A DNA stretch of 29,493 nt, from positions 1 to 29,493 of the IMG/VR virus record IMGVR_UViG_3300027743_000343. One strand, written 5' to 3'. Below the pieces are notes generated by a model. That model was not told where the DNA came from and searched no databases. It worked only from the letters and a program-made list of their open reading frames with translations. The position numbers and the translations under genes are program-made. Below, in pieces: positions 11,001 to 29,493 of the stretch. Origin of the DNA: a virus. Position 1 is the stretch's first letter; each line of letters begins with the position of its first letter.

Positions 11001-14000
11001 ATGGCCGGGTCGTGCTGGGCCATGTACACCCCGTTGCCGGAGGTGTAGTCGTACGCCCCACCCCGGCGCTTGAGGTGGGTCTGCAGGGCCTCGGCATCCT
11101 CCAGCGTGTCGGTCAGCCAGTTCACGTCGAAGTCGATGGTCCCGGTGTCGACATCGTGGAACACCCCGAGCCACACGCCCTCGCGTTCCAGATGGCCATG
11201 GTTGGCATCGACGAACTGGCGCAGCGCCGCTTCGAACTCGGCCCGTGTCCCGCCCGGGGCGATGCTCAGCGTCTCCCCGAAGGCGGACGAGAAGGGGCCA
11301 CCGCCATTCTCCTCACCAGCGGGCGTGACCTTGGCGTCGGAGTGGGCGTCGATGGACTCACCACCCCACGGCTCGCGGGTCTTGGCATACAGGTCATCGA
11401 CGATGTCATCCCAGTTCTCGTCGAGGTAGTCGATGGGCGTGGCCGGGCTGGTGGCAATCTCGCGCATGACGCCCTTGCCCTGTGCCTCGATGGACTCCAG
11501 TCGCTGGGGCTGGACGTAGCGCCCACGGGCGTAGCCGTCCTGATGGACGATGCTCGTGTACAGGTCGTTGAGGGCGGTGTCATCCATCCGGCTGGTGAAC
11601 GAGGGCAACCCCTCGCCCGGCTCGCTCACCACCCGGATGATGTACGACCCGTCCGGTGCCACCTGCAGGTCGGCGTTGCGGAAGAACGGGTTGTCCTCCG
11701 CCAACTGCTTCATGACCCCACGCATCTCGGGCCGCGTGATGTTGGAAGGAAATGTGATGTTGGCCGCGTGCCTGACCGAGTTCTTGGCGGTCGGCTTGGT
11801 GACCGTTGTCCGCACCGAGCGGATGCTGGGCAGGCGCAGTTGGACACCGAGGACGGCAGCGTGCGTCTCGGCGTTCTGGGGCGTGGACAGAATCTCGATG
11901 TTCACGGCGGAGCCCAGCCGACCCTCGCCTGATGCCCGCACGGACCCGTTCATCGAGATGACCTGCACGCCCGCCACGTGCGCGGCCTCGTCGCTGATGT
12001 CGTGGATGGCCAGCGAGGCCACCTCGTTGCTGGCCTCCTCGCTCAACTCGGGCAGGTCGTCCCACGTCATCCGCTCGTTGGGCGTGACCTCGACCGTGGT
12101 CTGGTACGAGTTCTCAAAGAACGCCGAGCGCACGTCACCGGTGTCGTCGCCGAACGCCTTCTTCGCACGGAACCAGCCCATCGCCTGCGCCTCGGCACCG
12201 GTCCAGTCGGTGCGCCCAAGGAACTCCTGCTCGTTGAGGTGGTCGACGATGTCGTTGTAGAACTCGACGATGGCGTCGTACTCGTGGTCGTTGGGGTTCG
12301 ACCCCACGTCCTTGGCCGGGATGGTGTGCGTCTCGCCGGTCGTCCGGTTGGTGAACTGGAACGAGTCGAACTTCTCGGAGGTGACGACCTTGCCCTTGGC
12401 GTTGACCTTGGTCACCTTGCGCACGTTCGTCTTGGTGACCCGGAACTCGGAGCCGTACACCTTCTGGAGGTAGGCGAACATCTTCTTGTCGAGGTAGCCC
12501 GCATCGCGCTTGGCCCAGATGTCACCGGCCACCGGCATCCAGTTGCCCTTGGGCCCACGGACGGGGATGGTCCGGGTGGGCATGCCGAGGAGCGAGTCGA
12601 TGAAGTCGATGAGTTTGAAGCCGAAGCCCTCACTGGTGAGGGGGTTGCTGTAGGCGTCGGACATGAACGCCTTGAGGGCAGGCCCGTTGAGCCCGGCGTA
12701 CTTCTTCAACTCCATCAGGTCGTCGGGCAGTTTGCCCCCACCCCGCAGCGTCTCGCTGATGCGCAGCAGGAAGCGCATGCCATCGACCGGCGACGTGTTC
12801 AACTGGGTCGCGCCGAAGGCCATGAGCATCTGCACGGCCTCCTCACGCTGGTTGTCGTTGAGAGCCATGAACGACCGGCGCATCGAGGAGTACCACTGCG
12901 CGGCCTCCCGAATCTGGTCGTCGGTCAGGTTGTTCTGCAGTTCCTCCAGCCACTGCACCGGTTCCTTGCGGCCACCGATGGAGTGGATGACCCGCCCGTT
13001 GTTGTCGTGGGCGAGGAGCCGACCATCGGGTGCGTTGGGCACCTGCCCGGGCACGCCCAACTCGGGATTGCGGGCACGGTCGACACGGGCCTTGAGGGCG
13101 GCACGTCCCTTGCGCTCGGCGTCGGTCAAGTCCTTGGTCGCACGCAGGCGCTCGGCCTCGTTGCGCCGGAACAGCGCCACCTCCGGGTCGACGAGGCCGA
13201 TGTCGCTCGGCTTCATCTGGTTGGGGATGTAGCCGAACTCGTCCGGCGGTCGCCCGGGCACCACCGTCCCACCGAGGGGGCGGCGCTTGTTGAGGAACAC
13301 GGTCACCGGGACCATGACCTTGTCCTGCCCCTTGGGGTGGGACCGGCGCAGTGCCTCCAGCCGGTGGTTGCCCTCGTCGATGAGGACCGTCCGGTCCTGC
13401 TGACCATAGGTCAACTGGATAGGCTCACGCATGCCCTCGGCATTGAGCGAGGCAGCGAGGTCGTCGACCTCCTCCGACGACAGCCGAGTGGCCGGGTTGC
13501 CCGGGGCCATGGCCAGCAGTTCGGACAGCGGGATGAGTTCGGTCTGGGTGGCGTGCGGGTGGCCGACCCATGCCAGTTCCCGGTCAGGTGCGGGCAACGA
13601 CAGGTCGGGCATCCGGGCCCGACCAATCTCGACGTACGCCTTGAGGATGTCGTCGTCGATGTCGGGCACCTTGAGGCCACGCGCAATCATCGCGTCCTCG
13701 ATGACTTGGAACAGGGCCATGCCCCGCTTCTCGTTCCACTGGTCGAGGGACTTGGGGGCGTCGGCGTACTTGTCACCCAGCGACTCGCTGATGTGGATGC
13801 CCTCGGCCTCGGCCACCGCCCGGTGGTAGTCCATCACCGCCTTGGCCTCGTCCTTGCCCAGCAGTGCAGTCATACGCCGTTCGAACTCGGCCTCGTCGGC
13901 ATAGCCGAGGTGCAACTTGGCCCGCTCGATGTAGTTGGGGTCGGCCCCGGCCTCGGTCAGGATGTCGGTCAGCCAGCCCTCGGTGACCTCGGTGTCCTTG

Positions 14001-17000
14001 GGGTCACGGAAGCGACGACGCAGGGTGCCCCACGTCTCGATGGGGGTGACCCGGTTCTGGTTCACCACCTCCATGACAATCTGCTGGCTGACCCGGGTCT
14101 TCGCCCCCACGAACGAGGGCCGGAAGAACTCCGCCGGATGGGTCTGGGCCTTGACCGCGCTGTACGCGGAGTCGGGGTTGTTGCGGGCCAACAGGTCGTT
14201 GAACCAACGGATGGCGGTGTCGCCGTCGGACGCCCCGTAGAACGTCTTCATCGTCCACCACGCCCGTGGCGACTCGGCCTCCATCATCCGCCGCATGTTC
14301 TGCCCGGCGTTGCGCCGGAAGGCCATGACCTGACCACGTGCCTTGATGCCCGCGACGAGGCTCGTGCCGGTCAGGCGGGCCAGCATCTGGCCCTCGCCCG
14401 AGGACGCCATCTTGGCCGAGGCAGCCCGGCCCCAGCGGACCACGTCGGTGCCCTCGACCACGTCCATCAGGACGTTGGTCCCGGTGGCCATGGCATCCAT
14501 CATGACCGCCGTCTGGTACAACTCGTGGGCCTCGGCCTCCTTGAGCGCATTGCGCGTGGCCTTGCCCCGGCTGATGCTGATGCCCGGGCCACCCGTGACC
14601 GCTTCCTTGGTACCCGACCACAGCGCCCGTGGGACGTACTGGCCCGGGTTGAGCCAGCCACGCACGGCCAGCAGAATGGGCGTCTCGGTGACCTCCATCG
14701 ACTGGAACTTGGGCGACCAGCGGAAGCGGATGTTGGGGAACATGCGTTCCGCCCACGTGCCCAGCATGGTGGTCGCCGGACCACGCATGACCTCACGGGT
14801 CTTGAGCCAGCCCGTGAACTTCTGGCTGACACCGACCACGCCGAGCGAGCCCTCGTAGGCGAAGAAGATGGACCGCGCCAGTTCCTTGCGGGTGATGGAG
14901 TCCTTGACCTTCTTGGGTAGGTGGACCTTATCGGCGGCCCTGACCATCTCCTCGGCGGTGAGGCCACGAGGACTGGAGGCGTTGGCCTCGTTGGTCGCCG
15001 TGCGCAGGGCCCGCATGATGGAGTCGGACTGGTAACGCGAAAGGCCGTAGACCTCACCCATGCGCTGGGCGAAGCGACGGTTCTGCTCGGTCGCCACCTG
15101 CACCCCGCCGATGGCCTTGGTCATCCCCGACAGGTGGCTCATCAACCGGTCCTGCGGCATCACGTCACCGATGCCGATGGTCTTGCCACGGACGTAGTCC
15201 ATGAACGGGTTGATGCTGACGATGGACCCGTTCTTGGTACCGACCCCGAAGACCTCCTCGGGGCGCAGGCTAATCTGGGCCACCTCGCCGAACCGTGACA
15301 TGAACGCCTTGAGGGCAGGCGTCAGGTTCTTCTCGGGGATGGCCTTGGGCAGGAACTGCTTCTGCGAGTCAAGGACGTTGGTGACCTGCCGCAGCAGTTC
15401 GTCGTCACCCAGCGACTGGTTGACGTTGTAGGTCAGCGTGTCGTACCGCTCGACCGCAGCCCGGACATCGGCATACCGCTTGGCCTTGATGTGCTGGCGG
15501 ATGAGCCGTTCGGTGTCGACATCCAACTGGTTGTAGCCAAGGAAGATGGCCCGCTCGACGAAGGATGGGTCGAGCCCGGCAGCGATGGCCTCCCGCATCC
15601 CTGCCTCGCGAGCGGTCAGGATGCTGTCGGCCATGTTCCCGTAGATGAGCATGCGGAGGGCACCGATGTCGTTGGCATCGGCCTTGGCCACCGCCTGCTC
15701 GGCTGCCTCACCCGTGATGTCGTAGGCCGAGACGAGCAGCCGTGCGGTCAACGCCCGCTCACGCTTGAGCGCCGTCTCCATCGTCTCACCGGCGGTGGGC
15801 ACCACGAGGTGGCGGACCTTGCCCGTCTTGTACTTGGTCAACTGGCGCACGTCCTTGCCGTGGCGCGACAGCATGTCGGCCCCGAGTTCGGCAGCACCCA
15901 GCACTGTCTCCGCGTTGTGCGGGCGCACGCCCATATGCGCGTACGTCGTGGCGATGGACTCACCACCGACCTGCTGGCCGATGTTGGCCGCAGCCGTGGC
16001 CATGTTGTCGGACAGGCGGGCCTCGTCAACACCGGCTGCCCGCAGGGCCGTGAACACCCGGCGCAGTGGACGCTCGCCGATGGCGTCACGGAACCCGGCC
16101 ACCATCTGGATGGCCACGCCCTGCTGGGTGAAGCGACCGACCCGGTCGCCACCGAACATGGACAGTGGGTCCAACACCTTGTTGACCCGTTCGACCCACT
16201 CCAGCGCGTGCTGGTGACTGACCAGCGGGCGGGTCAGTCGACCCACCGAACGGGTCGCAGCCCGCATCGCCGGGTCACCGGTGGAGAGCGCGTAGCGGAC
16301 CATGTTCCGGGGCGATGCGGCCACGCCCTCGGGCAGGTTCTTGGTCAGGCCCTCGATGGCCTGACTGCGGATGTCCTTGACCACTTGCTCGCCCATCTCA
16401 CGAGACAGCAACTTGGTCAGCGCCGAGCCAGCCACGTCCTCGGCCACCTCCCTGCCAGCGGCACGCGCCGCCGCCCGCAAGGCATCGTCGCCGTAGGCCA
16501 TCACCATCTGGGTCGCCGCACGGCCAGTGAGCCTGATGGCCCCACCGGTACCGCTGGAGAACAGGGTCAAGGGGTCGGTGCCCAACTCCAGCCCCATCGA
16601 GACAGCAGCAGCCACCACGTTGGCCGTGACCTCGGCAGGCAACTGGAGCAACGTGCCCTGCCCGAACCCACGGATGGCCTTGATGGGGTCGGACTGGCCG
16701 ACAGGGTTCATCAGGGCTTCACCCGCGAGGGTCAGTTCATCGAGAGCCCGGTCGTCGTCGTACTCCCCGGAGAGCAACTTGTCGCGGATAGCCATGGCGA
16801 CCTCGTCGCCTTCCAAGTCCTCGTCACTGGCCTTGCGAAGGGCATCCAACCGGTCTTGCGGGTCGAGGCCGATGATGCTGCGCTTGAGCCACTTGGACGA
16901 GATGTCCAGTCCTTCCATCGCCGTGTTGAGGCCACCGCCGATGGTTTGGTCGGTCGGGGTCGGGACGATATTGGCGAACAGGGCCGATGCCTTCTTGGTG

Positions 17001-17515
17001 GCCACGAGGTGGTCGCGCATGAACTGGCTCTTGGCCTGCGCCTCGGACATCCAGTTGGACCCACTGGACATCGACGCGAAGTACTGGTCGTAGTCGGCCT
17101 GATTGCCCTTGGCGTACTCGGCAGCGAAGGCATCGTTGACCAAGCCGAGGTTCGTGACAGCCTGACCGACGAAGGGGATGGCCGAGATGGGTGCCTTGGC
17201 AATCTCGCCGATGATGTGGGAGATACCCCCGAGGATGGGCACGCCTGCGAACGCCTCGGGTGTCTCGATGGGTTCCGCCCGCCGGGGCGTACTCATCAGG
17301 TTGGCGTTGAACTTCCCGATGGCGTTGAACGGGCGCGTGTCGTCCTTGGACTGGACGCTGCCGCCACCACTGGTGCCCTGCCGGGGCACGCCCATCGTGG
17401 CCGACTTCTGGTTCTGCTTGAGCCACTGGGCCGAGGACGCGGACGACTGCGACCCACCACCGCCGCCGCCGGACCCGCCCTGTCCGGTGTCCCGACGGTA
17501 GCCATCGAGGACCAT
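8087..17515 (-). CDS. Giant polyvalent-type internal virion protein
   Basis: 3142 residues in one frame, about a third of the window. Its ATG directly abuts the TAG of the preceding gene. A Gly-rich N-terminus is followed by hydrophobic, amphipathic stretches (about 88-125 and 290-315). A long helical region resembling internal virion proteins of short-tailed phages follows (about 350-1300). A ParB-like segment lies at about 1320-1410 (DEGNHRLEALRR). An Ala/Gly-rich linker precedes a metallopeptidase-like segment with HEMAHDWVNRH, first His at residue 2358; an acidic helix near 2400 may give the third zinc ligand. Near the C-terminus is a conserved-looking motif, HQYFGMYPLSYMWGKVLPE (about 2908). 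Position between portal and scaffold plus the domain mix point to a polyvalent protein packaged in the head and injected with the DNA. Functions are inferred; the enzyme motifs need structure prediction. Confidence 0.7.
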   Translation of the reverse strand: MVLDGYRRDTGQGGSGGGGGGSQSSASSAQWLKQNQKSATMGVPRQGTSGGGSVQSKDDTRPFNAIGKFNANLMSTPRRAEPIETPEAFAGVPILGGISHIIGEIAKAPISAIPFVGQAVTNLGLVNDAFAAEYAKGNQADYDQYFASMSSGSNWMSEAQAKSQFMRDHLVATKKASALFANIVPTPTDQTIGGGLNTAMEGLDISSKWLKRSIIGLDPQDRLDALRKASDEDLEGDEVAMAIRDKLLSGEYDDDRALDELTLAGEALMNPVGQSDPIKAIRGFGQGTLLQLPAEVTANVVAAAVSMGLELGTDPLTLFSSGTGGAIRLTGRAATQMVMAYGDDALRAAARAAGREVAEDVAGSALTKLLSREMGEQVVKDIRSQAIEGLTKNLPEGVAASPRNMVRYALSTGDPAMRAATRSVGRLTRPLVSHQHALEWVERVNKVLDPLSMFGGDRVGRFTQQGVAIQMVAGFRDAIGERPLRRVFTALRAAGVDEARLSDNMATAAANIGQQVGGESIATTYAHMGVRPHNAETVLGAAELGADMLSRHGKDVRQLTKYKTGKVRHLVVPTAGETMETALKRERALTARLLVSAYDITGEAAEQAVAKADANDIGALRMLIYGNMADSILTAREAGMREAIAAGLDPSFVERAIFLGYNQLDVDTERLIRQHIKAKRYADVRAAVERYDTLTYNVNQSLGDDELLRQVTNVLDSQKQFLPKAIPEKNLTPALKAFMSRFGEVAQISLRPEEVFGVGTKNGSIVSINPFMDYVRGKTIGIGDVMPQDRLMSHLSGMTKAIGGVQVATEQNRRFAQRMGEVYGLSRYQSDSIMRALRTATNEANASSPRGLTAEEMVRAADKVHLPKKVKDSITRKELARSIFFAYEGSLGVVGVSQKFTGWLKTREVMRGPATTMLGTWAERMFPNIRFRWSPKFQSMEVTETPILLAVRGWLNPGQYVPRALWSGTKEAVTGGPGISISRGKATRNALKEAEAHELYQTAVMMDAMATGTNVLMDVVEGTDVVRWGRAASAKMASSGEGQMLARLTGTSLVAGIKARGQVMAFRRNAGQNMRRMMEAESPRAWWTMKTFYGASDGDTAIRWFNDLLARNNPDSAYSAVKAQTHPAEFFRPSFVGAKTRVSQQIVMEVVNQNRVTPIETWGTLRRRFRDPKDTEVTEGWLTDILTEAGADPNYIERAKLHLGYADEAEFERRMTALLGKDEAKAVMDYHRAVAEAEGIHISESLGDKYADAPKSLDQWNEKRGMALFQVIEDAMIARGLKVPDIDDDILKAYVEIGRARMPDLSLPAPDRELAWVGHPHATQTELIPLSELLAMAPGNPATRLSSEEVDDLAASLNAEGMREPIQLTYGQQDRTVLIDEGNHRLEALRRSHPKGQDKVMVPVTVFLNKRRPLGGTVVPGRPPDEFGYIPNQMKPSDIGLVDPEVALFRRNEAERLRATKDLTDAERKGRAALKARVDRARNPELGVPGQVPNAPDGRLLAHDNNGRVIHSIGGRKEPVQWLEELQNNLTDDQIREAAQWYSSMRRSFMALNDNQREEAVQMLMAFGATQLNTSPVDGMRFLLRISETLRGGGKLPDDLMELKKYAGLNGPALKAFMSDAYSNPLTSEGFGFKLIDFIDSLLGMPTRTIPVRGPKGNWMPVAGDIWAKRDAGYLDKKMFAYLQKVYGSEFRVTKTNVRKVTKVNAKGKVVTSEKFDSFQFTNRTTGETHTIPAKDVGSNPNDHEYDAIVEFYNDIVDHLNEQEFLGRTDWTGAEAQAMGWFRAKKAFGDDTGDVRSAFFENSYQTTVEVTPNERMTWDDLPELSEEASNEVASLAIHDISDEAAHVAGVQVISMNGSVRASGEGRLGSAVNIEILSTPQNAETHAAVLGVQLRLPSIRSVRTTVTKPTAKNSVRHAANITFPSNITRPEMRGVMKQLAEDNPFFRNADLQVAPDGSYIIRVVSEPGEGLPSFTSRMDDTALNDLYTSIVHQDGYARGRYVQPQRLESIEAQGKGVMREIATSPATPIDYLDENWDDIVDDLYAKTREPWGGESIDAHSDAKVTPAGEENGGGPFSSAFGETLSIAPGGTRAEFEAALRQFVDANHGHLEREGVWLGVFHDVDTGTIDFDVNWLTDTLEDAEALQTHLKRRGGAYDYTSGNGVYMAQHDPAMAYGVSRTYADVIELSNDWSLYPNGEQYMEALRRIPAAEEKVDVGRRQAAAEYLDSDGRDWARMVIDRAYNTVAPREVATHRTARAAAGDDAFDLASDTGHFSQHPRGTRAARTAASDARRSTTLWQRASRADGTDRTAGAAGAGAAAGPPAGARGAITDAGGATSKGTRRAQVYIGKTRAKDTAAHEMAHDWVNRHMQASAKRRAKRVYADEHGLTYDPRSRVTELTVDEQEWLADQFVEYLRQGDEAMVSPTLRPLAAHYKKSLRDKRVPVPPTPEEQAHRVAQRQYEADMAEYENARIAHEQATAQHQKDLADWEAEAAAAPAEGEIRFPPVPEGASLGPVHPGDQAGMQWDELVTDPERVRRIKPGQSKPLHQILMSDEDYSRVLSRYSHFITPDPKTPGTHIITMPKTRPAPVATTRRYVSKEGDVVTQEALPVAGAPPVDKAEAELRSLLRMQEDIQKGIDEAVPPNLRDYGLEKRAEYEEAMAVHQADIRSRENDLRNVVERRLFLANKQKKAAAKAAEPVADVAEVKAVYTKWNDSGAKNAPRMRADLERLSASGHDVKDEIDMVDDWENMERRDFGDMEEYKDARQDAWDELLNSLESKTIPEDLTDAGLQASLKNVGTVEDVVPVRPKPEPPPEFNMVAPAEPVAPPRGPKTRKRTLVPEVGSLFDDTAKAPPPKNPYAFDVDEELALRWMYASHHRADRVSRELINARSERSWLERSLNHQYFGMYPLSYMWGKVLPEMLEFLLFKPFGLEMPLVGIQNVNKMYQHVMLQQENDPELRQFLADNEDAFRALAMFIPGLPWDLPVNIPNWARRSVEAIAESYFTQMENEGEADTWKTISDADYSSIFSDTIDSAVGLADTVKTMGSWPGLALDIAAGAVPDTEEERLQRENFRPRTTSGQEQLQMNGEPEGFAPAPMVPPTPAQQGPVEAPVQQPVGGVEAEVEPELTEALEDVTESLGGG

Positions 17516-20194
17516 CTACCGCCCGCCGGGCAGTCCGCCTTCGCCCTCTTCGTGCTTCACGATAGGAGGCGGAGGTGGAGGCGATGGAGCGTACGACCAC
17601 GGGTTCGGCACATCCCGAGGGATGGTGGGCGGAGGCGGTGGCGCAGCCGGAGCCGGAGGCTTCGTTGGCGTGGCCGTCTTCGGCGGCGGGACATAGACCC
17701 CACCCCGGTACGTCCCACCACCAGTGACGACCGTGCCCTTGGCCGTGATGGGCTTGGGCTTGGCGAACCCGATGTTGTCCGCGATGAGCGACCGGGTCCA
17801 GCCATTGAACATGCCGACGGTCTGCGCCCCCTCATCCACCGGCGTGCCATCCAACGGTCGACCGGCCACGCGGGCGGCACGGCGCAGGCCAAGGGCCACG
17901 TCGTCGAACTTGGTGTCGTTGAAGGTGATGGTGTTCTGCTTGACCCCAGCCTGCTGGAAAGCCCGGATGGTCAGCGGCGTAATCTCGCCCTTGAGGGCGT
18001 CACCGATAATCTTGTCCCGGTCCTTGATGTACTGCGGGTCAGCGAGGGACTGCGGACCCCGGTTCTCCTGCCGCCGGAAGTACGCATCCAGTTCATCAGC
18101 CATGCCCACGAACGCGTTGTCCTTGATGCCCGCTTGGTCAGCGAGGGCCGGGATATCGCCTGCCCTGTTGGCCGCACGCAGGCGCTTTTCGAAGTCGGGC
18201 GTGCCGCGCATGAAGTCGTTGCGTGCCTGCTCGGCGTCCAGATACACCCTGACCTGCTCAGGCAGACCGGCGTTGGGGCCGAGTTCGGCGTCGATGGCGT
18301 AGCGCACCGACTCGCTGCTCTCGCTGAACGCGATGCCCGTTTCCTTACCGGGGCCGGACACCCACGACGCGTACGAGGACAGGCCCACCGCGTTGGGCAT
18401 CAGGTCGGCGGTGCGGGGGTCACTGAACTCAGGCGCGACCGACACGTACGGGTCGAAGTCGGTCTTGTCGCCACCCTTGGCAAACCCCCCGACATCGACT
18501 TCGAACGTTCCTGCCACCGGGTTGAGTTCACCGACGAACGGGTTGACGTTGGAGTACCGCTTGGTCCCGTCGTTGGTCCAGTACTGGTAGACCGTCGAGC
18601 CGTCGGGCATGGTGTGGGCAACGCCCACCGTCGCCACCGACTTGGGGTCACGGAAGCCCAGCGGTCGACCGGCGAAGTCGAGTTGGCTGGTCGAGGCGAT
18701 GGCGTTGATGGGACGACCGATGGACCCGGTCAGCACACCAGCCGTGCGCACCTGCGTGCCATCCGAGAGGGTGATGGTCGCGGGCATGCCACCGGCGGAC
18801 GGCACGAAGGCCGAACCCTCGGGCAGGTCGGCGATACGGGCAGTGCCGAACTTGCCGGTGCCGTCCTCGGTGATGGCACCGCTGCTGTCCTTGCGGACCA
18901 TGACCGCCGTGCCATCGGTCAGTTCCTTGACCTGCGCCTCCAGTTCGGCGAACGCGGCCACGTTGCGGCCCGTCTCCCCGTCGCCGTTCTCGTGGGCCTT
19001 GGCCGACTCGCCCCGGCTGTCCTCCATCCACGTCGGCGCGTTGATGTCGCCCTTGCCCAGCAGGGACTCAATCTCGTTGTTGACGTGGCCGAGCGCCGTG
19101 TCGATGGGCTTGTAAGCGTCCTGCCCGAAGGCGTTGACGATGTCCTGCGACGGGCCAATCTGGGACAGGTGGTCGCTGACGTTGCGCAGGCGTCCGACGA
19201 GGTCGTCCTTGGCCAGCAGCAGGTCGATGGGCGTGACGTTGGGGTCGGTCGCCACGTCGTTGAACAGGCGGCGGGCCTCCTCGTACTCGGCCAGTGGCGG
19301 CGCGGCGACGATGGACAGGAACATGTCCGAGCCCTCGCCCATCTCCTTGGTGATGGCCGTGGTGTCGCCCTTCATGCCCGCCTTCTGGGCCTTGGTCAGC
19401 CGTCCCTCCATGCCGTTGGTCTTGTCGGCGAACATGCCGTGCAGGGCTTGGAACGAGTAGTCGCCGTTGAAGTTCGGGTCGCCGTACCGCTTGATGTACG
19501 CCGTGAGTTGGTCACGGCGCGGCTGGTTCTCGGGCGAGTTGAACAGGTCGATGAGTTCCATCAACCGCGTGCCGTCCTTTTCGAACGCACGCAGGTCGGA
19601 CAGCGTCTCGTCCTCCTCGTTGAGGATGCCGGTCTGGCGGGCGAGACGGGTCAGTTCCCCCATGAACGTGTCGTAGGTCAGTTCCTTGGCCGAGGGCAGG
19701 CGGTTCTGCTCGCTGTTGTAGCCACTGCCCCGGCGACCGCCACCACCACCGCCGCCACCGCCACGGCCAGCAGCAGCAGCCCGGTCGGCGTACTGCGCGG
19801 CCAACTTCATCATGTTGCGCCACGCCTCGGAGTCCTTCGGCAGGGCACCGGCAGCCTGCTTGTAGAAGCGGGACATGGCGGCGTCACCGACCTTGCCCTC
19901 GGCGTACAGCAACTCCTGCTTGGAGTTCTTCACCGCCCACGTGTACTCGGTCACGCGCTGGTCGTACTGGTCGTACAGCGGGTCGTCCGGGCTGACGTTG
20001 GCGCGGCGTTCCTTGAGGTGGGCGATGAGCATGTCGTCGGTGACGGCCTGCCCTTCGAACTTCCCGCCCTCGTTCCATGCGTTGACGATGTTCTGGTCAC
20101 GCATGTTCTGGTACTCACGGGCCATCGAGGCGACCGTCGCCGAGAGGTCGACCGAGGCTCGCGGTCGGCGACCCCACCGACCCCTACGGGCCAC
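17516..20194 (-). CDS. Probable internal virion/ejection protein, unrecognised family
   Basis: 892 residues from a GTG start 3 nt after the portal stop, with GGGGAGGG about 7 nt upstream as ribosome binding site; an in-frame ATG 23 codons later is a weaker alternative. The N-terminal 130 residues are helical and charged, then comes a long Gly run (about residues 143-152), a helical middle, a strand-rich segment (about 450-570, with ATITLSDGTQV), another helical part, and a Pro-rich tail with PPPP runs. I recognise no enzyme motif. It is co-transcribed between portal and the giant polyvalent protein, so it is likely carried inside the capsid or attached to the portal and ejected. A long tail-associated protein is the alternative. 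Confidence 0.55.
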   Translation of the reverse strand: MARRGRWGRRPRASVDLSATVASMAREYQNMRDQNIVNAWNEGGKFEGQAVTDDMLIAHLKERRANVSPDDPLYDQYDQRVTEYTWAVKNSKQELLYAEGKVGDAAMSRFYKQAAGALPKDSEAWRNMMKLAAQYADRAAAAGRGGGGGGGGGRRGSGYNSEQNRLPSAKELTYDTFMGELTRLARQTGILNEEDETLSDLRAFEKDGTRLMELIDLFNSPENQPRRDQLTAYIKRYGDPNFNGDYSFQALHGMFADKTNGMEGRLTKAQKAGMKGDTTAITKEMGEGSDMFLSIVAAPPLAEYEEARRLFNDVATDPNVTPIDLLLAKDDLVGRLRNVSDHLSQIGPSQDIVNAFGQDAYKPIDTALGHVNNEIESLLGKGDINAPTWMEDSRGESAKAHENGDGETGRNVAAFAELEAQVKELTDGTAVMVRKDSSGAITEDGTGKFGTARIADLPEGSAFVPSAGGMPATITLSDGTQVRTAGVLTGSIGRPINAIASTSQLDFAGRPLGFRDPKSVATVGVAHTMPDGSTVYQYWTNDGTKRYSNVNPFVGELNPVAGTFEVDVGGFAKGGDKTDFDPYVSVAPEFSDPRTADLMPNAVGLSSYASWVSGPGKETGIAFSESSESVRYAIDAELGPNAGLPEQVRVYLDAEQARNDFMRGTPDFEKRLRAANRAGDIPALADQAGIKDNAFVGMADELDAYFRRQENRGPQSLADPQYIKDRDKIIGDALKGEITPLTIRAFQQAGVKQNTITFNDTKFDDVALGLRRAARVAGRPLDGTPVDEGAQTVGMFNGWTRSLIADNIGFAKPKPITAKGTVVTGGGTYRGGVYVPPPKTATPTKPPAPAAPPPPPTIPRDVPNPWSYAPSPPPPPPIVKHEEGEGGLPGGR

Positions 20195-24307: not shown

Positions 24308-24823
24308 ATGAGCCTGTTCGAAGCCCAGCCTCGGTCGACCATCGAGGACGGCAACTACGTCGCCACGGTGCGCAGCGCCGAGCGCGACGTCATCACCCCG
24401 CGCAAGGGCCGCAACGCTGGCAAGGACGTCGATATCGTCCGCTGGACGTGGTACCTCGACGAGGTGCAGGAGGACGTCGAGTCCATCACGGGCATCGACC
24501 CCACCTCCGAGAAGTCCAACCTGTTCAGCGTCCTCGTGGCGCTGGTCGGCACCAATCGTGACGCGTGGCTCGCTCTGACGCCACCGGAACTGGTCGGTCG
24601 CAAGGCGCTGGTGCAGGTCACCAACGACGCCGACGGTTGGCCCAAGGTCACGTCCGTGACCGCTCTCCCCAAGGGCATGCGCCCTCCGGCCCAGCCGGTC
24701 GGTGCCCCCGTGGGCTCGCCGGTCGCCACGACCGTCCCGGTCGAGGTCACCGAGGCCCCCATCGCGGAGGCCGTGCAGGCGACCCTCGTCCCGGCTGATG
24801 CCGAGGACGACCTGCCCTTCTAG
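24308..24823 (+). CDS. Single-stranded DNA-binding-like protein (DUF669 type)
   Basis: 171 residues from an ATG, first gene of the plus-strand block. Residues 1-125 look like an OB-fold protein of the phage DUF669/SSB kind: EDGNYVATVRSAERDV, then RWTWYLDEV, then a GRKALVQVTND strand pair. A Pro/Val-rich linker follows, and the protein ends in DDLPF, matching the acidic tip by which bacterial SSBs recruit replication partners. It most likely coats single-stranded DNA during phage replication and works with the primase-polymerase/helicase encoded next. A terminator lies 12 nt after the stop. Confidence 0.7.
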   Translation: MSLFEAQPRSTIEDGNYVATVRSAERDVITPRKGRNAGKDVDIVRWTWYLDEVQEDVESITGIDPTSEKSNLFSVLVALVGTNRDAWLALTPPELVGRKALVQVTNDADGWPKVTSVTALPKGMRPPAQPVGAPVGSPVATTVPVEVTEAPIAEAVQATLVPADAEDDLPF

Positions 24824-24834
24824 GCGGGTACAGC

Positions 24835-24876
24835 AGAGCCCCCTCATCGGCTTCGCAGCAGGTGAGGGGGCTCTTT
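24835..24876 (+). terminator. Intrinsic terminator after the SSB-like gene
   Basis: A 12-bp perfect stem (24835-24846 with 24863-24874, core GAGCCCCCTCA) with a 16-nt loop is followed by TTT (24874-24876). It separates the SSB-like gene from the replicase gene, so downstream genes need read-through or another promoter. Confidence 0.8.
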
Positions 24877-24925
24877 GCGCGTCGGACATCACCCCAACGC
24901 TCTGGCTGCAGGGCCGAGGAGAACC

Positions 24926-25051
24926 GTGTTCACCACCCCGCATCCACACTCCAGACCATATCAGAACCGGCGTAGACTGCGTAGTCCCTGCGAGAGGACG
25001 CTCGTCACGCGGCTCCGCATCCGAGGAGTTCCTGTACATCATGCCAGATGA
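24926..25051 (+). CDS. Possible short Arg-rich leader peptide
   Basis: A 41-codon frame opens with GTG at 24926, with GAGGAG 4 nt upstream; the GAGGAGAACC context is identical to that before the small gene at 29191. The peptide (starts MFTTPHPHS, then RRRLRS) is very rich in Arg and His. Its stop overlaps the start of the replicase gene by 11 nt, suggesting translational coupling. There is no homology evidence, so it may be chance. Confidence 0.33.
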   Translation: MFTTPHPHSRPYQNRRRLRSPCERTLVTRLRIRGVPVHHAR

Positions 25052-27344
25052 GGATGAGTTCCGCCCGGTCCGCGATATCGCGGCAGAGGCGGAGGTGGTC
25101 GACGATGTCGTCGAACAGACCACCGCCCGGCTGGAACAGAACCGAGCCCAGCAGGACGACACCAGCAAGTACCCGGCCATGCTCGCCGCCCTCGGCCTCG
25201 CCGCCATCGGGTGCGCCATCATCCCGGTCCAGACCCACAAGAAAGACCCGCTCATGGGCAAGCGGTGGGAGGAGACGGCCCGGACGTACCCGCAGACGTT
25301 CCTGCGCAACCCGGGCACCCTGAACTACGGCGTGCTGCCCCCTCCGGGCTGCGTCATCCTCGATGTCGACGGCGACAACCCGGCGTGGATGGCCGAACTG
25401 GCCCAGACCCTCGGCCAACTGCCCGAGACGCGCATCCACGCCTCTCCCAACGGCCAGCACTGGTTCTTCCGGTGGCCAGACACCCTTCCCCGCCCTTCCG
25501 GCCCGTGGTGGGGCCGTGTCGTGGCTCGCTGGCCGTACGGTGACGACGGTCAGGGCTACGTGGTCGGCCCGGGCTCGCAGGTCAAGCAGCCGGACGGGTC
25601 CATCAAGGCGTACAGCGTGCTGTGGGACGAGCCCATCGCCGACCTGCCCCTGTCGTGGGCCGAGAGCGTCCTTGCGTACCGGCCACCGCGTGCGGTGCCG
25701 ACCCCTGAGGGGATGGACTGGGACGCAGCGGGAGGTGAGCCGTACGTCCTGCCCGAGTCGGTGCATGAGGGTGGCCGGTACGACAGCATCGTGCGCTACA
25801 CCGCACATCTGTACAACCAAGGGCTGTCGATTGCTGAGATGGCCGAGAAAGTGCGCGACGAACTGGTCCCACGCTGGACCAAGCCCAAGTCGCAGGCCGA
25901 ACTGCGCGGTGACTTCCGGCGTGCGACCAAGGACATGGTCGACCGGCTCGGCCCACCGGCCCACGTCCCGCTGCCCGGCGGCATCGTGCCCGGGTCGCTG
26001 CTTGACCCCACGAGTCAGTCCGACGAAGCGTCGGTTGAGCCCACGACACTTGACACGGGAGCGTACGCTCAGGACTCGCCGACCGTACAGGCGAGTCCTG
26101 AGCGTACGAACACGGTTGACCCCACGCCCCTGTTCGGCGCACCATCTCAAGGGGCTCCTGCCGCTGTTTCCCCCGAGCCAGCGGCGGTCGAGCCCCCGTT
26201 CTTCGAACGTGGTGACGTCCTCGCCGACCGGCTCCGGGCGATGGGCCCGGTCCCGTACCTGCTCGACGGTCTGGTCACGTCATCCGGCCTGAACCTCATC
26301 GGTGGCCACCCGAAGTCCGGCAAGTCGCTGGCGGCGCTGCAGATGCAGGCAGCATGGGTCATGGGCGGCGACTTCCTCGGCCACGCCGCCGACCAGCGCG
26401 GGCACCGCGTGGCCGGGTACGTCACGCAGGAGGGCTCGCGTGACCTCATGCGTGAGCGTCTGGACCGGCTGTACGCCGCCCATCCGGGCATGGACGCCAC
26501 GGGGCGCTTCCTGACCGCCTTCCTCAAGCCGCTCCTGTTCACGAAGGAGGGCTACGCCTTCATGGCCGAGCGCATCTCGGCCATCGAGTCCGAGTACAGT
26601 GCCCGGCCCGGCCCGCTCGACCTGTGGCTGACCCTCGACCCGCTCCGTGACTTCATGCCGTCCGGTGCCGACGAGAACGACGCCAAGCACATGGCCGAGG
26701 TCAAGCGGTGGTGCCGCACGCTGCTGTCCGAGTTCACGTTCCTGTCGTTCACGGTCGTCCACCACCTGCGCAAGGCGGCGAACGGCGACACCGGGCTGGA
26801 ACTGTCCGGCTCGGGGGCCACGTACGCGATGACTGACTCGACGCTCACGTGGAAGGCCAAGAAGAAGGACGAGGACGAGTACGACGACACTGGCTTCCTG
26901 CGTACGCGTCGACCGCTGCGTGGGACGTACAACATCGAGTCGCGCGGTGGTGAGCCGAGTGGTGGCCCGTGGCGCTATGACCAGCACAGTGGCCTCATCG
27001 TTCCCGACAACCAGCGCGAGACGGACACCCTTGGCCGCTCACAGCCCGGCGAGACGCAGCGCACCGTCTACGACCTCCTGCTCGACGCCGGTGGTCGCGG
27101 CATCACCGGCCCCGAGGTCAGCGCCCTCTTCCCCGAACTGACCCCGGCGGCAGCCGGTGCCGCCCTTCTCCGGCTGTACAAGGACGGCAAGGCCGACCAG
27201 ACCGGCGATACCACCAGTGGTGGCCGTGGCAACGCCAAGCGGTACTACGGCAGGGGCTGGAGCCCGGCGAATGACCCGGCTGGGTTGGTGCCGCCGGACG
27301 AGTCCGAGGACTTCACCCCGGACCCCCTGCATCCGGTCGACTGA
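25041..27344 (+). CDS. Primase-polymerase/helicase replication protein
   Basis: 767 residues from an ATG with GAGGAG 12 nt upstream; longer in-frame extension into the SSB region is unlikely. The N-terminal half (about 40-240) matches bifunctional primase-polymerase (AEP) domains: LDVDGD with D108 and D110 as metal ligands, and a GQHWFFRWP motif with H140. A helical part (about 250-305) and a disordered linker (about 315-385) follow. Then comes a RecA-fold, RepA-like helicase: Walker A GHPKSGKS (residues 422-429), LWLTLDPLRD near 530 as Walker B, and VVHHLRK near 573. A winged-helix-like segment is at about 675-740. The protein probably starts replication at the repeats just downstream, making primers and unwinding DNA with SSB help. 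Confidence 0.85.
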   Translation: MPDEDEFRPVRDIAAEAEVVDDVVEQTTARLEQNRAQQDDTSKYPAMLAALGLAAIGCAIIPVQTHKKDPLMGKRWEETARTYPQTFLRNPGTLNYGVLPPPGCVILDVDGDNPAWMAELAQTLGQLPETRIHASPNGQHWFFRWPDTLPRPSGPWWGRVVARWPYGDDGQGYVVGPGSQVKQPDGSIKAYSVLWDEPIADLPLSWAESVLAYRPPRAVPTPEGMDWDAAGGEPYVLPESVHEGGRYDSIVRYTAHLYNQGLSIAEMAEKVRDELVPRWTKPKSQAELRGDFRRATKDMVDRLGPPAHVPLPGGIVPGSLLDPTSQSDEASVEPTTLDTGAYAQDSPTVQASPERTNTVDPTPLFGAPSQGAPAAVSPEPAAVEPPFFERGDVLADRLRAMGPVPYLLDGLVTSSGLNLIGGHPKSGKSLAALQMQAAWVMGGDFLGHAADQRGHRVAGYVTQEGSRDLMRERLDRLYAAHPGMDATGRFLTAFLKPLLFTKEGYAFMAERISAIESEYSARPGPLDLWLTLDPLRDFMPSGADENDAKHMAEVKRWCRTLLSEFTFLSFTVVHHLRKAANGDTGLELSGSGATYAMTDSTLTWKAKKKDEDEYDDTGFLRTRRPLRGTYNIESRGGEPSGGPWRYDQHSGLIVPDNQRETDTLGRSQPGETQRTVYDLLLDAGGRGITGPEVSALFPELTPAAAGAALLRLYKDGKADQTGDTTSGGRGNAKRYYGRGWSPANDPAGLVPPDESEDFTPDPLHPVD
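26062..26108. repeat. 19-bp perfect inverted repeat inside the replicase gene
   Basis: Arms 26062-26080 and 26090-26108 are exact complements around a 9-nt spacer. The repeat lies in the linker between the primase and helicase domains, where protein sequence is free to vary. A 6-bp hairpin (26018-26032 region) and three TTGA(C/G)CCCACG direct repeats (26002, 26035, 26116) surround it. Confidence 0.8.
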
Positions 27345-27345
27345 T

Positions 27346-27401
27346 GCGCTAAACCCCTCACCTCGGCCCCCTATAGGGGGGGGCCGTGAGGGGTTTAGCG
27401 C
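27346..27401 (+). repeat. 16-bp inverted repeat just after the replicase gene
   Basis: GCGCTAAACCCCTCAC (27346-27361) is the exact complement of 27386-27401, with a second GC-rich stem inside. It begins 1 nt after the replicase stop. Its right arm contains the GTGAGGGG unit of the repeat array that follows. It could act as a terminator (no T-tract follows), an RNA 3' end, or part of an origin. Confidence 0.75.
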
Positions 27402-27503
27402 AAACCCTTCGTCGTTCCGCACGTGAGGGGTTTCGTTCGTGCTTGTGAGGGGTATGTGAGGGGTTTCGTGAGGGGTTAGGGCTGTTGGGTTTCGTGAGGG
27501 GTT
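27386..27503 (+). repeat. Iteron-like GTGAGGGG array, candidate replication origin
   Basis: Six same-direction GTGAGGGG units start at 27386, 27423, 27445, 27456, 27468 and 27494, mostly followed by TTT or TTA, plus one inverted copy at 27354. Spacings are 37, 22, 11, 12 and 26, partly matching the DNA helical turn. The longer unit TTTCGTGAGGGGTT occurs at 27464 and 27490. Repeats just downstream of an initiator-type replicase are typical of phage and plasmid origins, so this may be the binding site of the replication protein. Direct evidence is lacking. Confidence 0.6.
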
Positions 27504-27880: not shown

Positions 27881-27910
27881 TTGCGTTGCCCCCACCACCT
27901 GTGCTACCTT
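27881..27910 (+). promoter_or_regulatory. Promoter-like -35/-10 pair
   Basis: TTGCGT (27881-27886) and TACCTT (27905-27910) are 18 nt apart and fit a loose sigma-70-type pattern (TAnnnT). The start would be near 27917. This would drive the structured leader and the small genes downstream. Confidence 0.45.
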
Positions 27911-27916
27911 ACGGCC

Positions 27917-28435
27917 ATCAGCCACCCCGAGCGTTGAGGAAACGGGGTCGAACTCGCGGCGAACAGGCTCCTCGGAGCCGATGAAAGAACCGGGCGAGAG
28001 TCGACAACAGGTGACTGAGCCAGACCGAACGGAGCGCACACGAGGCAGGGGCCACGACCTAAGTGGAACCACCCGATGCCGAGCGCGAGACTCCCCTGCA
28101 AGACGACCTGCTGACGGCGACCGAACCAACGGTCCAACGGCGCAGGGCCGGACACTGGGGTCGGACGGACCATGAGAGCGAAAGACCCGAACGGGCCGCT
28201 GCACCATCGCCAGCACGGATACCGGCAACGACGACCGGAACGTGACAGCCGAGAGGCTGAGATGAAGCGGGCTCCAAGTAGGCCCCCGGCACCAGCCGGG
28301 AAGTAGCCCTGAGCAGGCCGATTGCAAGGCCGCTCCGAGTAGCCCCCACCCCGGGGTCCAGCCGCACGAACACCATCACCATCCCGATGGAGCGACCCTG
28401 CTGGAGCCGGTGCGTGGGCCGAACCACCGATGGTC
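27917..28435 (+). ncRNA. Candidate ~520-nt structured RNA upstream of small genes
   Basis: No convincing coding frame was found between the promoter-like pair and 28495. The strand is dense in short stems with purine-rich joins: GGCTC/GAGCC with a CTCG loop (27966-27979), CCAC/GTGG (28052-28066), CAGCC/GGCTG with a GAGA tetraloop (28246-28259), CCCGGC/GCCGGG with an ACCA loop (28285-28300), and TCCAGC/GCTGGA (28357-28405) enclosing CCAT/ATGG. AGTAG followed by C-runs recurs three times (28277-28345). A hammerhead-like core at its end would cut after 28435 and give a defined 3' end. It matches no RNA class I can name, so the call is tentative. Confidence 0.42.
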
Positions 28436-28481
28436 GCCGGGATGCATCACCCGGCCTGATGAGCCCACAGAGGGCGAAACC
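28432..28481 (+). ncRNA. Hammerhead-like ribozyme, type III arrangement
   Basis: The core is complete. Cleavage triplet GTC is at 28433-28435; stem I GCCGGG/CCCGGC (28436-28441 with 28450-28455) has an 8-nt loop. CTGATGA is at 28456-28462; stem II GCCC/GGGC (28463-28466 with 28472-28475) has an ACAGA loop; GAAA is at 28476-28479. Stem III is only GGT/ACC (28432-28434 with 28479-28481), possibly extended past an internal loop by CC/GG (28427-28428 with 28484-28485). Expected cut: after 28435. The short stem III is why confidence is lower than for the next two. Confidence 0.6.
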
Positions 28482-28495
28482 TAGGAGAACCACCC

Positions 28496-28756
28496 ATGGC
28501 CACCATCCGAACCATCCGAACCGTCCGCCCGGCCTACACCGAGAGCGAGGCGTTCGCCGTCGCCGAGGCCCTGAACACGCAGGCCGTCGCCATCCGAACC
28601 CGGATGCTGGAGACGGAGCATCGTGCCAAGAACCACCGCCTCAATGGCCGCGACACGGCCAGCGACATCGTCCTGCAGGAACTCCCTCTGCTGACCGCAC
28701 GGCTCAACGCCGTGAACGCCGCTCGCATCGCTCTGGCCGATGCCATGAACGTCTGA
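28496..28756 (+). CDS. Small protein of unknown function
   Basis: 86 residues from an ATG with TAGGAG about 8 nt upstream. The start has an IRTIRTVRP repeat from a 9-nt tandem repeat; the rest looks like one or two charged amphipathic helices (AFAVAEALNTQAVAIRTRMLE and LQELPLLTARLNAVNAARIAL). No known domain is recognised. It is the first of three small genes that each follow a hammerhead-like element, and its TGA stop shares its last A with stem II of the next ribozyme. Confidence 0.75.
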   Translation: MATIRTIRTVRPAYTESEAFAVAEALNTQAVAIRTRMLETEHRAKNHRLNGRDTASDIVLQELPLLTARLNAVNAARIALADAMNV

Positions 28757-28817
28757 GCCGAAACCCCGAGAGGGGTCGTTCCGACCTGACCGCCCGGAGC
28801 CTGATGAGGCTAGGTCA
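28756..28817 (+). ncRNA. Type II hammerhead ribozyme between small genes
   Basis: All core positions fit the hammerhead consensus. Stem II is AGCC/GGCT (28756-28759 with 28808-28811); GAAA is at 28760-28763; stem III is CCCC/GGGG with a GAGA loop (28764-28775); then TC with the cut after 28777. Stem I is GTTCCG/CGGAGC (28778-28783 with 28795-28800, one G-U pair), and CTGATGA is at 28801-28807. Stem II is the open stem, so this is type II. Loop I TGACC (28787-28791) can pair with GGTCA (28813-28817), a pseudoknot. GAGGAG (28828-28833) and the next ATG follow the ribozyme. Confidence 0.9.
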
Positions 28818-28841
28818 CCGCATCACCGAGGAGAACGCCCC

Positions 28842-29090
28842 ATGGCGCTCATCTACCCCAGCAACGTCCAGCCGTTCGCCAACCGCTGGGCGAACCGTGC
28901 GGACTACCGTGCGGCCTACGCCGCTGACCAGCCGGACGACCGGTGGGTCGTCGCGGCGAACGGCGACGAAGTCCCGTTCCTGCGCCAGAACCGCTGGTGC
29001 ATCCGGGTCTGGAACCCGCGCACCGTCACCCACGGCATCCTCGACATCGGCACGGACATCGTGACCGACGAGACGAACCCGTGGGACTAG
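28842..29090 (+). CDS. Small protein of unknown function
   Basis: 82 residues from an ATG with GAGGAG 8 nt upstream. It is rich in Trp, Arg and Asp (RWANRADYRAAY, then DDRWVVAANGDEVPFLRQNRW, then IRVWNPR) and appears strand-rich in its second half. No known family is recognised. The previous ribozyme would leave this message with a 5' hairpin, and the next one would trim its 3' end 46 nt after the stop. Confidence 0.78.
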   Translation: MALIYPSNVQPFANRWANRADYRAAYAADQPDDRWVVAANGDEVPFLRQNRWCIRVWNPRTVTHGILDIGTDIVTDETNPWD

Positions 29091-29113
29091 TCGCCATCCC
29101 TGTCGCCGGTCCG

Positions 29114-29173
29114 TAGCCGAAACCCCCACGGGGGTCGTCCCGCCTGCCGAGCGGGGCCTGATGAGGCTAGGCA
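29114..29173 (+). ncRNA. Type II hammerhead ribozyme between small genes
   Basis: Stem II is TAGCC/GGCTA (29114-29118 with 29165-29169); GAAA is at 29119-29122; stem III is CCCC/GGGG with a CACG loop (29123-29134); then TC with the cut after 29136. Stem I is GTCCCGC/GCGGGGC (29137-29143 with 29151-29157, one G-U pair) and CTGATGA is at 29158-29164. Loop I TGCC (29145-29148) pairs with GGCA (29170-29173), matching the pseudoknot of the upstream copy with different bases. Confidence 0.91.
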
Positions 29174-29190
29174 TCACATCGAGGAGAACC

Positions 29191-29493
29191 ATGGCCACGA
29201 CCATGCGCACCGAGGACGAGGGTGTCCTCAACATCAACACCACGCCGAACGGGCGGGTCCGCCTGTTCGTCGAGGACGGGTGCGGCGACCGCGCCGTGGT
29301 CTACCTGACCGCGACCGAGGCCGAGGCGCTCATCAGCGACCTGCGCCAGCGCATCGCGCCGGTCGAGTCGACGCCGGTCCACACCGTCCGTGGTGGCAAG
29401 CCTGCCGCCGAGTTCGGGGCGTACGGCGTGCCCCACGACATGGACTGCCCCGGCTGTCAGGGCACGTCGTTCACCGCATCGCCGCGCAGCGAA
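29191..29493 (+). CDS. Small protein of unknown function, C-terminus cut by window
   Basis: An ATG with GAGGAG 4 nt upstream opens a frame of 101 codons still open at the right edge. The visible part has a strand-rich start (VLNINTTPNGRVRLFVED), a short helix (TEAEALISDLRQRIA) and, near the end, CPGC, which could be half of a zinc-binding or redox pair. No family is recognised. It completes the repeated pattern of ribozyme, purine-rich ribosome binding site and small gene, which may continue outside the window. Confidence 0.75.
   Translation, partial: MATTMRTEDEGVLNINTTPNGRVRLFVEDGCGDRAVVYLTATEAEALISDLRQRIAPVESTPVHTVRGGKPAAEFGAYGVPHDMDCPGCQGTSFTASPRSE

Follow-up and report, generated by a model that had tools for sequence, protein, structure and literature searches.

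The sequence under study is a virus record of 29,493 b from IMG/VR, analysed at its full length and referred to below as the window. Its gene content is that of a phage, with genes for a portal protein, a major head protein, and a DNA polymerase/primase (Table 1). A 3142-aa open frame on the minus strand (8087-17515) sits between the portal and major head protein genes and matches no Pfam family at E 0.01. Directly behind the polymerase/primase gene lies a 58-nt palindrome (27345-27402; two 29-nt arms, 86% complementary), followed by copies of GGGTTTCGTGAGGGGTT within 27379-27503; together they are perhaps a replication or termination site. Rightward of the palindrome and short repeats come an A-rich noncoding leader and three small genes, each preceded by a hammerhead ribozyme or hammerhead-like element (HH1, HH2, and HH3).

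Table 1. Coordinates of the genes, ribosome binding sites, and hammerhead parts in the window.
Feature	Position	Strand	Description or basis
Portal and major head protein genes		-	gene identification in window
DNA polymerase/primase-like gene	24702-27344	+	880 aa
A-rich noncoding leader	27915-28413	+	between promoter-like stretch (by eye) and HH1
HH1, hammerhead-like	28414-28482	+	predicted cut after 28435; activity doubtful
HH1 5′ block G copy	28414-28426		stem II strand GTGGGC, J CGA, ACCA
HH1 stem III partner	28431-28434
HH1 stem I	28436-28441 / 28450-28455
HH1 CTGATGA	28456-28462
HH1 stem II strand	28463-28468
HH1 3′ block G copy	28472-28481		GGGC GAA ACC
Gene 1 ribosome binding site	28483-28487	+	AGGAG
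Small gene 1	28496-28756	+	86 aa; ORF and ribosome binding site
HH2, type II	28756-28817	+	descriptor; R2 42.8 bits, E 4e-10
HH2 stem II	28756-28759 / 28808-28811		AGCC / GGCT, 4 bp
HH2 GAA	28760-28762
HH2 stem III	28763-28767 / 28772-28776		5 bp
HH2 predicted cut	after C 28777
HH2 stem I	28778-28783 / 28795-28800		6 bp
HH2 CTGATGA	28801-28807
HH2 pseudoknot, loop I-3′ tail	28787-28791 / 28813-28817		UGACC with GGUCA; by eye
Gene 2 ribosome binding site	28829-28833	+	AGGAG
Small gene 2	28842-29090	+	82 aa; ORF and ribosome binding site; no family
HH3, type II	29114-29173	+	descriptor; R2 47.9 bits, E 1.6e-11
HH3 stem II	29114-29118 / 29165-29169		TAGCC / GGCTA, 5 bp
HH3 GAA	29119-29121
HH3 stem III	29122-29126 / 29131-29135		5 bp
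HH3 predicted cut	after C 29136
HH3 stem I	29137-29143 / 29151-29157		7 bp
HH3 CTGATGA	29158-29164
HH3 pseudoknot, loop I-3′ tail	29145-29148 / 29170-29173		UGCC with GGCA; by eye
Gene 3 ribosome binding site	29182-29186	+	AGGAG
Small gene 3	29191-29493, cut by window end	+	106 aa in longer contig L132

The leader, whose AT skew reaches 0.58, folds with z = -1.17, and a promoter scan of the leader region found none. It is partly conserved (71.6% identity over 74 nt, E 0.001) in a relative, L131, whose portal is 62% identical to that of the window phage. Possibly the leader is a structured RNA in its own right, which would owe its 3′ end to HH1. In a search of annotated phages, neither region 27900-29493 of the window nor the portal protein found a match.

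The sequence AGGAGAAC precedes all three start codons, in agreement with a sequence-only reading of the window that had noted a similar ribosome binding site before each gene. That reading also placed a small gene behind every element; gene 3 is borne out by relatives in L172 and L133, and genes 1 and 2 are predicted from an open reading frame with a ribosome binding site, and IMG/VR searches recovered them in the same phage only. None of the three small proteins matches PHROGs at E 0.01 or reaches a Pfam cut-off; small protein 1 matches Pfam SpoIID at E 0.003, below that family's cut-off.

Scanned with a descriptor comprising CUGANGA, GAAA, UH, and three stems, the window yields two type II hits and a single type III hit, every one on the plus strand, where the CTGATGA cores lie at 28456, 28801, and 29158. 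The same descriptor finds zero type II or type III elements on both strands of 60 simulated windows with the same dinucleotide make-up. The letters at the cleavage positions named by the sequence-only reading (28435, 28777, and 29136) are those expected, and its count of two type II cores and one type III core holds for HH2 and HH3 under both the descriptor and model R2; HH1 is not a clean type III element, its stem III having only 3 bp.

R2 is a covariance model built from 38 elements of other phages with the window sequences left out. An earlier model, R1, included HH2 and HH3, so its scores for these two are circular. Without them, R2 still recovers HH3 and HH2 with the scores given in Table 1. 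An Rfam search of the whole window found no family at its gathering score; below threshold, RF02276 (Hammerhead_II) scores 33.6 bits for HH3, 22.1 for HH2, and 15.2 for HH1 against a cut-off of 37. The sequence-only reading had staked itself on a covariance-model hit above threshold; Rfam's own model gives none, and R2 gives HH2 and HH3. Thermodynamic z-scores (HH1 -0.64 and 0.36, HH2 -0.20, HH3 0.03) indicate that shuffled sequences fold equally well.

In HH2 and HH3, all core elements are present (CUGANGA, GAA plus A15.1-U16.1, and the UH cleavage site); loops close stems I and III, and stem II is open. HH2 fits tightly behind gene 1, with the stop codon 6 nt before G12 and the stop TGA (28754-28756) overlapping the element by one base. 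HH3 has no such tight fit, the stop codon of its upstream gene lying 31 nt before G12. By structure, HH2 and HH3 are sound type II hammerheads with predicted cleavage.

HH1 is a doubtful hammerhead as judged from its letters and folds. Its GAA-bearing strand is doubled (GTGGGC-CGA-ACCA on the 5′ side, GGGC-GAA-ACC on the 3′ side), and the same GCCC can pair with either copy. In the type II fold (-24.9 kcal/mol), the junction of stems II and III reads CGA and not GAA, which keeps HH1 out of the type II class. In the type III fold (-19.9 kcal/mol), the core is intact, and stem III has 3 bp with a pairing probability of 0.07-0.08. The type II fold is thus 5 kcal/mol the more stable of the two, and the structure of lowest energy (-28.8) corresponds to neither of them. 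HH1 may represent an intermediate between type II and type III or a decayed element, and may be slow or inactive.

That HH1 is a chance or decayed motif, leaving HH2 and HH3 as the elements that count, is a serious possibility that falls slightly short of even odds, and it is compatible with a role of the array in punctuating an operon. Besides the two flawed folds, the R2 score points this way (13.8 bits, E 0.036, against 10.7 bits for the next-best match in the window), as does the fact that a loose descriptor gives 4 type III elements across the searched loci and the window together. Against decay, the position of HH1 is the one expected of a hammerhead, with 33 nt separating its CTGATGA from a start codon that has an AGGAG, and hammerhead-like RNAs open the small-gene region in the relatives L131 and L128. 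HH1 has no recognisable upstream gene on its strand. A scan for the capacity to fold as both type II and type III returned HH1 alone, among 232 type II-capable and 2 type III-capable places; it covered the collected loci other than six window-copy or control loci and L172-L177.

The element in L131 lies before the first small gene and consists of hairpins for stems III and I, then CTGATGA, then a hairpin for stem II; an intact GAAA is missing from this counterpart of HH1. For HH1 and the L131 element, a permutation of type III or "three closed hairpins" form was considered; with one relative only and no covariation, it was set aside and remains a lead. The gaps after the first two small genes of L131 hold a repeated hairpin (GAGCCCT..AGGGCTC, at about 18210-18270 and 18540-18600 of the reverse complement) rather than hammerheads. 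L128 ends inside what reads as a type II hammerhead with GAAA; this truncated element scores 18.8 bits with R1 and 11 bits with R2, and given the low R2 score (E 0.65) it is a reading by eye.

The array consists of three elements. A longer contig of the same phage (L125/L132; 46,734 b, with one mismatch in 19,293 shared bases, 99.995%) carries three copies of CTGATGAG on this strand, which are the same three elements as in the window, and R1 finds HH2 and HH3 only, a search by which an element with other letters could be missed. Searches of the longer contig with CTGATGAG and R1 thus yield no fourth element, and the suggestion that the operon continues to the right with further modules is not upheld.

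Among 12 records of the window's group, R1 finds matches in five (2, 1, 1, 2, and 1) and none in seven, several of the records being fragments. L172 contains three hammerheads, each before a gene; the first is truncated by the contig end, and its remnant precedes a homologue of gene 3 (52% over 75 aa). The other two elements of L172, both type II (401-479 and 931-1008), have extra letters in or beside CUGAUGA (CUGAUGA-C-GGC and CUGA-A-UGA-A-GGC) and retain their stems and the UGACC/GGUCA pseudoknot. In L133, which holds another relative of gene 3, neither a hammerhead by the descriptor nor CTGATGAG was found. Two IMG/VR contigs, L128 and L135 (L172 1-10), end inside a hammerhead, and perhaps repeated ribozyme sequence stops assembly at such places.

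To place these elements in a wider set, IMG/VR was surveyed with a pattern consisting of the type II core and a 3-bp stem II, with stems I and III not required. The pattern matches at least 120 stretches, compared with 1 for a control with two core letters swapped, and 116 of 120 pattern loci contain at least one copy of an element with proper stems; the sample was selected throughout by this one type II pattern. R1 gives 212 matches at E <=0.001 over 121 loci and none in the control locus, L124. The predicted proteins of the window have no match in the 120 pattern loci at 1e-5, and a repeat with a positive control was also empty; similar elements therefore occur in phages without detectable kinship to the window phage.

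The non-redundant set holds 174 type II elements, 168 of which are testable for placement. An upstream stop codon lies 12 to 5 nt before G12 in 116/168, compared with 6, 4, and 6 of 174 at random, and in these the distance from stop codon to GAAA is 5-12 nt; the stop chosen for the placement count falls inside the ribozyme in 8/168. A ribosome binding site and start codon follow within 70 nt downstream in 141/168 (random: 38, 31, and 41 of 174). The message leader after the predicted cut has a median of 56 nt in the survey and spans 54-64 nt in the window. A loop I-tail pseudoknot, a frequent but not a required feature of type II hammerheads, is present with at least 5 bp in 78 of the 174 elements versus 29.6 with shuffled tails. 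Across 38 aligned elements, 121 cells are changed on both sides of a pairing versus 30 in shuffles, the aligned elements having been taken from the set that the finder had selected for pairing. At least two elements are found in 17 of 45 hammerhead-bearing records, and in each of these 17 they share one strand; as many as 13 elements occur in a single record.

Queries of annotated phages with array stretches and single elements pointed to cultured Streptomyces phages of the subfamily Arquatrovirinae; the window's own HH3 matched annotated phages only at E 3 or worse. Seven cultured phages, all of this one subfamily, were chosen from the similarity hits. In the stretches searched, R1 finds 11 elements in VieEnRose, 13 in Paedore, 11 in Celia, 11 in Issmi, 9 in R4, 9 in Hank144, and 8 in Amethyst, and it finds no element in the whole genome of phiC31. 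The Rfam model detects hammerheads at its gathering score in VieEnRose, Paedore, Celia, and Issmi and also in two IMG/VR stretches (L176 and L177). GAAA, UH, and CUGANGA are present in 72/72 cultured-phage elements.

According to the deposited gene tables, from which three tiny R4 ORFs overlapping hammerheads were removed beforehand, the arrays of the seven phages contain 66 gaps of at least 60 nt, and 59 of these hold a hammerhead (42/47 in VieEnRose, Paedore, Celia, and Issmi; 17/19 in R4, Hank144, and Amethyst). One element in VieEnRose and one in Celia overlap annotated genes, and elements outside such gaps number 5/9 in R4, 1/9 in Hank144, and 2/8 in Amethyst. The stop codon lies 12 to 5 nt before G12 for 22/46 elements of VieEnRose, Paedore, Celia, and Issmi; given this count and the 31 nt of HH3, the tight stop-codon fit is not universal.

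Clustered phage hammerheads and the processing idea are already known, and the window adds a further example. The comparison below draws on portions of the papers cited. Perreault et al. 2011 (PMC3088659) proposed that such clusters cut RNA into single-gene messages, and reported cleavage in vitro for three clusters (Clostridium, Azorhizobium, and Agrobacterium) and in E. coli for one, with 14/18 tested consensus hammerheads cleaving in vitro. A 2017 review (PMC6155905) treats the role of prokaryotic hammerheads as an open question, and why they associate with genes was still unknown in 2023 (PMC10085705). In the window, at least two hammerheads lie close together and flank single genes, and as in the 2011 clusters the identity of the genes varies and the type II elements have a pseudoknot between loop I and the 3′ tail (PMC3088659). 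Unlike those clusters, the window has in HH1 two copies of the GAA-bearing strand, and the portions of that paper drawn on contain neither the stop-to-ribosome-binding-site fit nor the near one-per-gap arrays of 8-13 seen in the Streptomyces phages. RF02276 has the core and three-stem layout in common with HH2 and HH3. In the block permutations of Eckert et al. 2023 (PMC10085705), HH2 and HH3 share the block order GSC (type II); the order G-S-C-G of HH1, whose block G is degenerate in the 5′ copy and intact in the 3′ copy, was not found in the portion covered. HHphage of the haloviruses HF1/HF2 likewise resembles a hammerhead and directly precedes the start codon of a viral gene, and the 5′ end of the message was mapped near the cut; it differs in belonging to viruses of halophilic archaea, in its variant core, and in being described as one such element (PMC3088659). 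Neither the doubled GAA strand nor tight, near one-per-gap arrays were found in the portions consulted of PMC3088659, PMC6155905, PMC7761336, PMC4524478, PMC10085705, and PMC11300833, and among the matches listed from the open-licence PMC literature, none describes Streptomyces phages with near one-per-gap hammerhead arrays.

We consider it likely, with a probability of roughly 0.7, that HH2 and HH3, and perhaps HH1, act as self-cleaving punctuation of a phage operon that would yield single-gene messages. From the motifs, cores, pairing, and placement observed, we infer transcription, cleavage in the cell, and a gain along the following lines. A rightward transcript would run through the noncoding leader and then through genes 1 to 3. 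HH2 and HH3, each folding between a stop codon and the next ribosome binding site, would cut after 28777 and 29136, respectively; HH1 may likewise cut after 28435, but at a lower rate, or may fail to cut. Gene 1 would end up on a unit spanning 28436-28777 (extended at its 5′ side should HH1 not cleave), gene 2 on a unit spanning 28778-29136, and gene 3 on a message of its own. Downstream messages would begin with a 5′-OH and the stem I hairpin, 54-64 nt ahead of the start codon, and upstream messages would end in the stem III hairpin right behind their gene. The likely gain would be separate, hairpin-capped messages whose stability and translation could be set individually.

The favoured position of elements at gene borders in the survey and the near one-per-gap arrays in cultured phages argue for processing, as do the covariation of the stems and the hammerhead remnant before the gene-3 homologue in L172; the seven of 12 group records that lack an R1 match, several of them fragments, argue against it, together with the flawed folds of HH1, the Rfam scores below cut-off, the flat thermodynamic z-scores, and the L133 relative that lacks a hammerhead by the descriptor. 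The observation made by the sequence-only reading is largely real, with HH1 doubtful, and its interpretation is partly supported: the cutting of a polycistronic RNA into single-gene messages fits the anatomy and the survey, the cultured phages agree with it well, and the label "early" for that RNA finds no support.

Cleavage may not always be kept, since the L172 cores contain insertions and the L131 element lacks an intact GAAA. The elements could instead be mainly structured spacers between genes, with cleavage slow, conditional, or lost, whose hairpins and pseudoknot protect message ends or shape access to the ribosome binding site. Retention of stems and pseudoknot in two L172 elements despite their core insertions, the broken cores of HH1 and the L131 element, and the plain hairpin repeats in L131 gaps would suit such a role. 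We nevertheless regard it as quite unlikely, because the catalytic core is kept in HH2, HH3, and every cultured-phage element, and an unpaired core should drift without selection for cleavage; the searches, however, favour intact cores.

RtcB-type ligases join 5′-OH to 2′,3′-cyclic phosphate ends, and the gene-2 unit would end in just these groups. That the ribozymes are selfish or circle-forming elements, with units between two hammerheads ligated into circular RNAs as in retrozymes, is nonetheless very improbable, given that RtcB occurs in 1/45 hammerhead-bearing records (a host may supply one), that most elements sit at gene borders, and that Perreault et al. 2011 were unable to detect circular or spliced products (PMC3088659). 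Circularisation through a phage RtcB was rejected on the same count of RtcB genes.

Beyond operon punctuation as such lies a more far-reaching proposal, which we judge unlikely: phages that show no detectable relatedness would share a distinct type of operon punctuated by hammerheads, cutting would be coupled to translation of the neighbouring genes, and HH1 would be either a bistable switch or an intermediate between type II and type III. If so, a ribozyme would occupy most larger gaps, a terminating or initiating ribosome would cover part of a ribozyme that is often tightly fitted, and the two competing GAA-bearing strands of HH1 (order G-S-C-G) would underlie the switch or the intermediate.

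The main interest of the finding lies in the cultured phages, R4 with its host S. coelicolor among them, where most of the larger gaps of the small-gene arm are occupied by hammerheads; R4-type phages are a laboratory system in which the single-gene-message idea can be tested directly. For annotators there is also a warning: the tiny R4 genes gp60.1, gp67.1, and gp75.1 coincide with hammerheads (9763-9846, 12126-12218, and 15074-15175 of L182) and are probably false genes.
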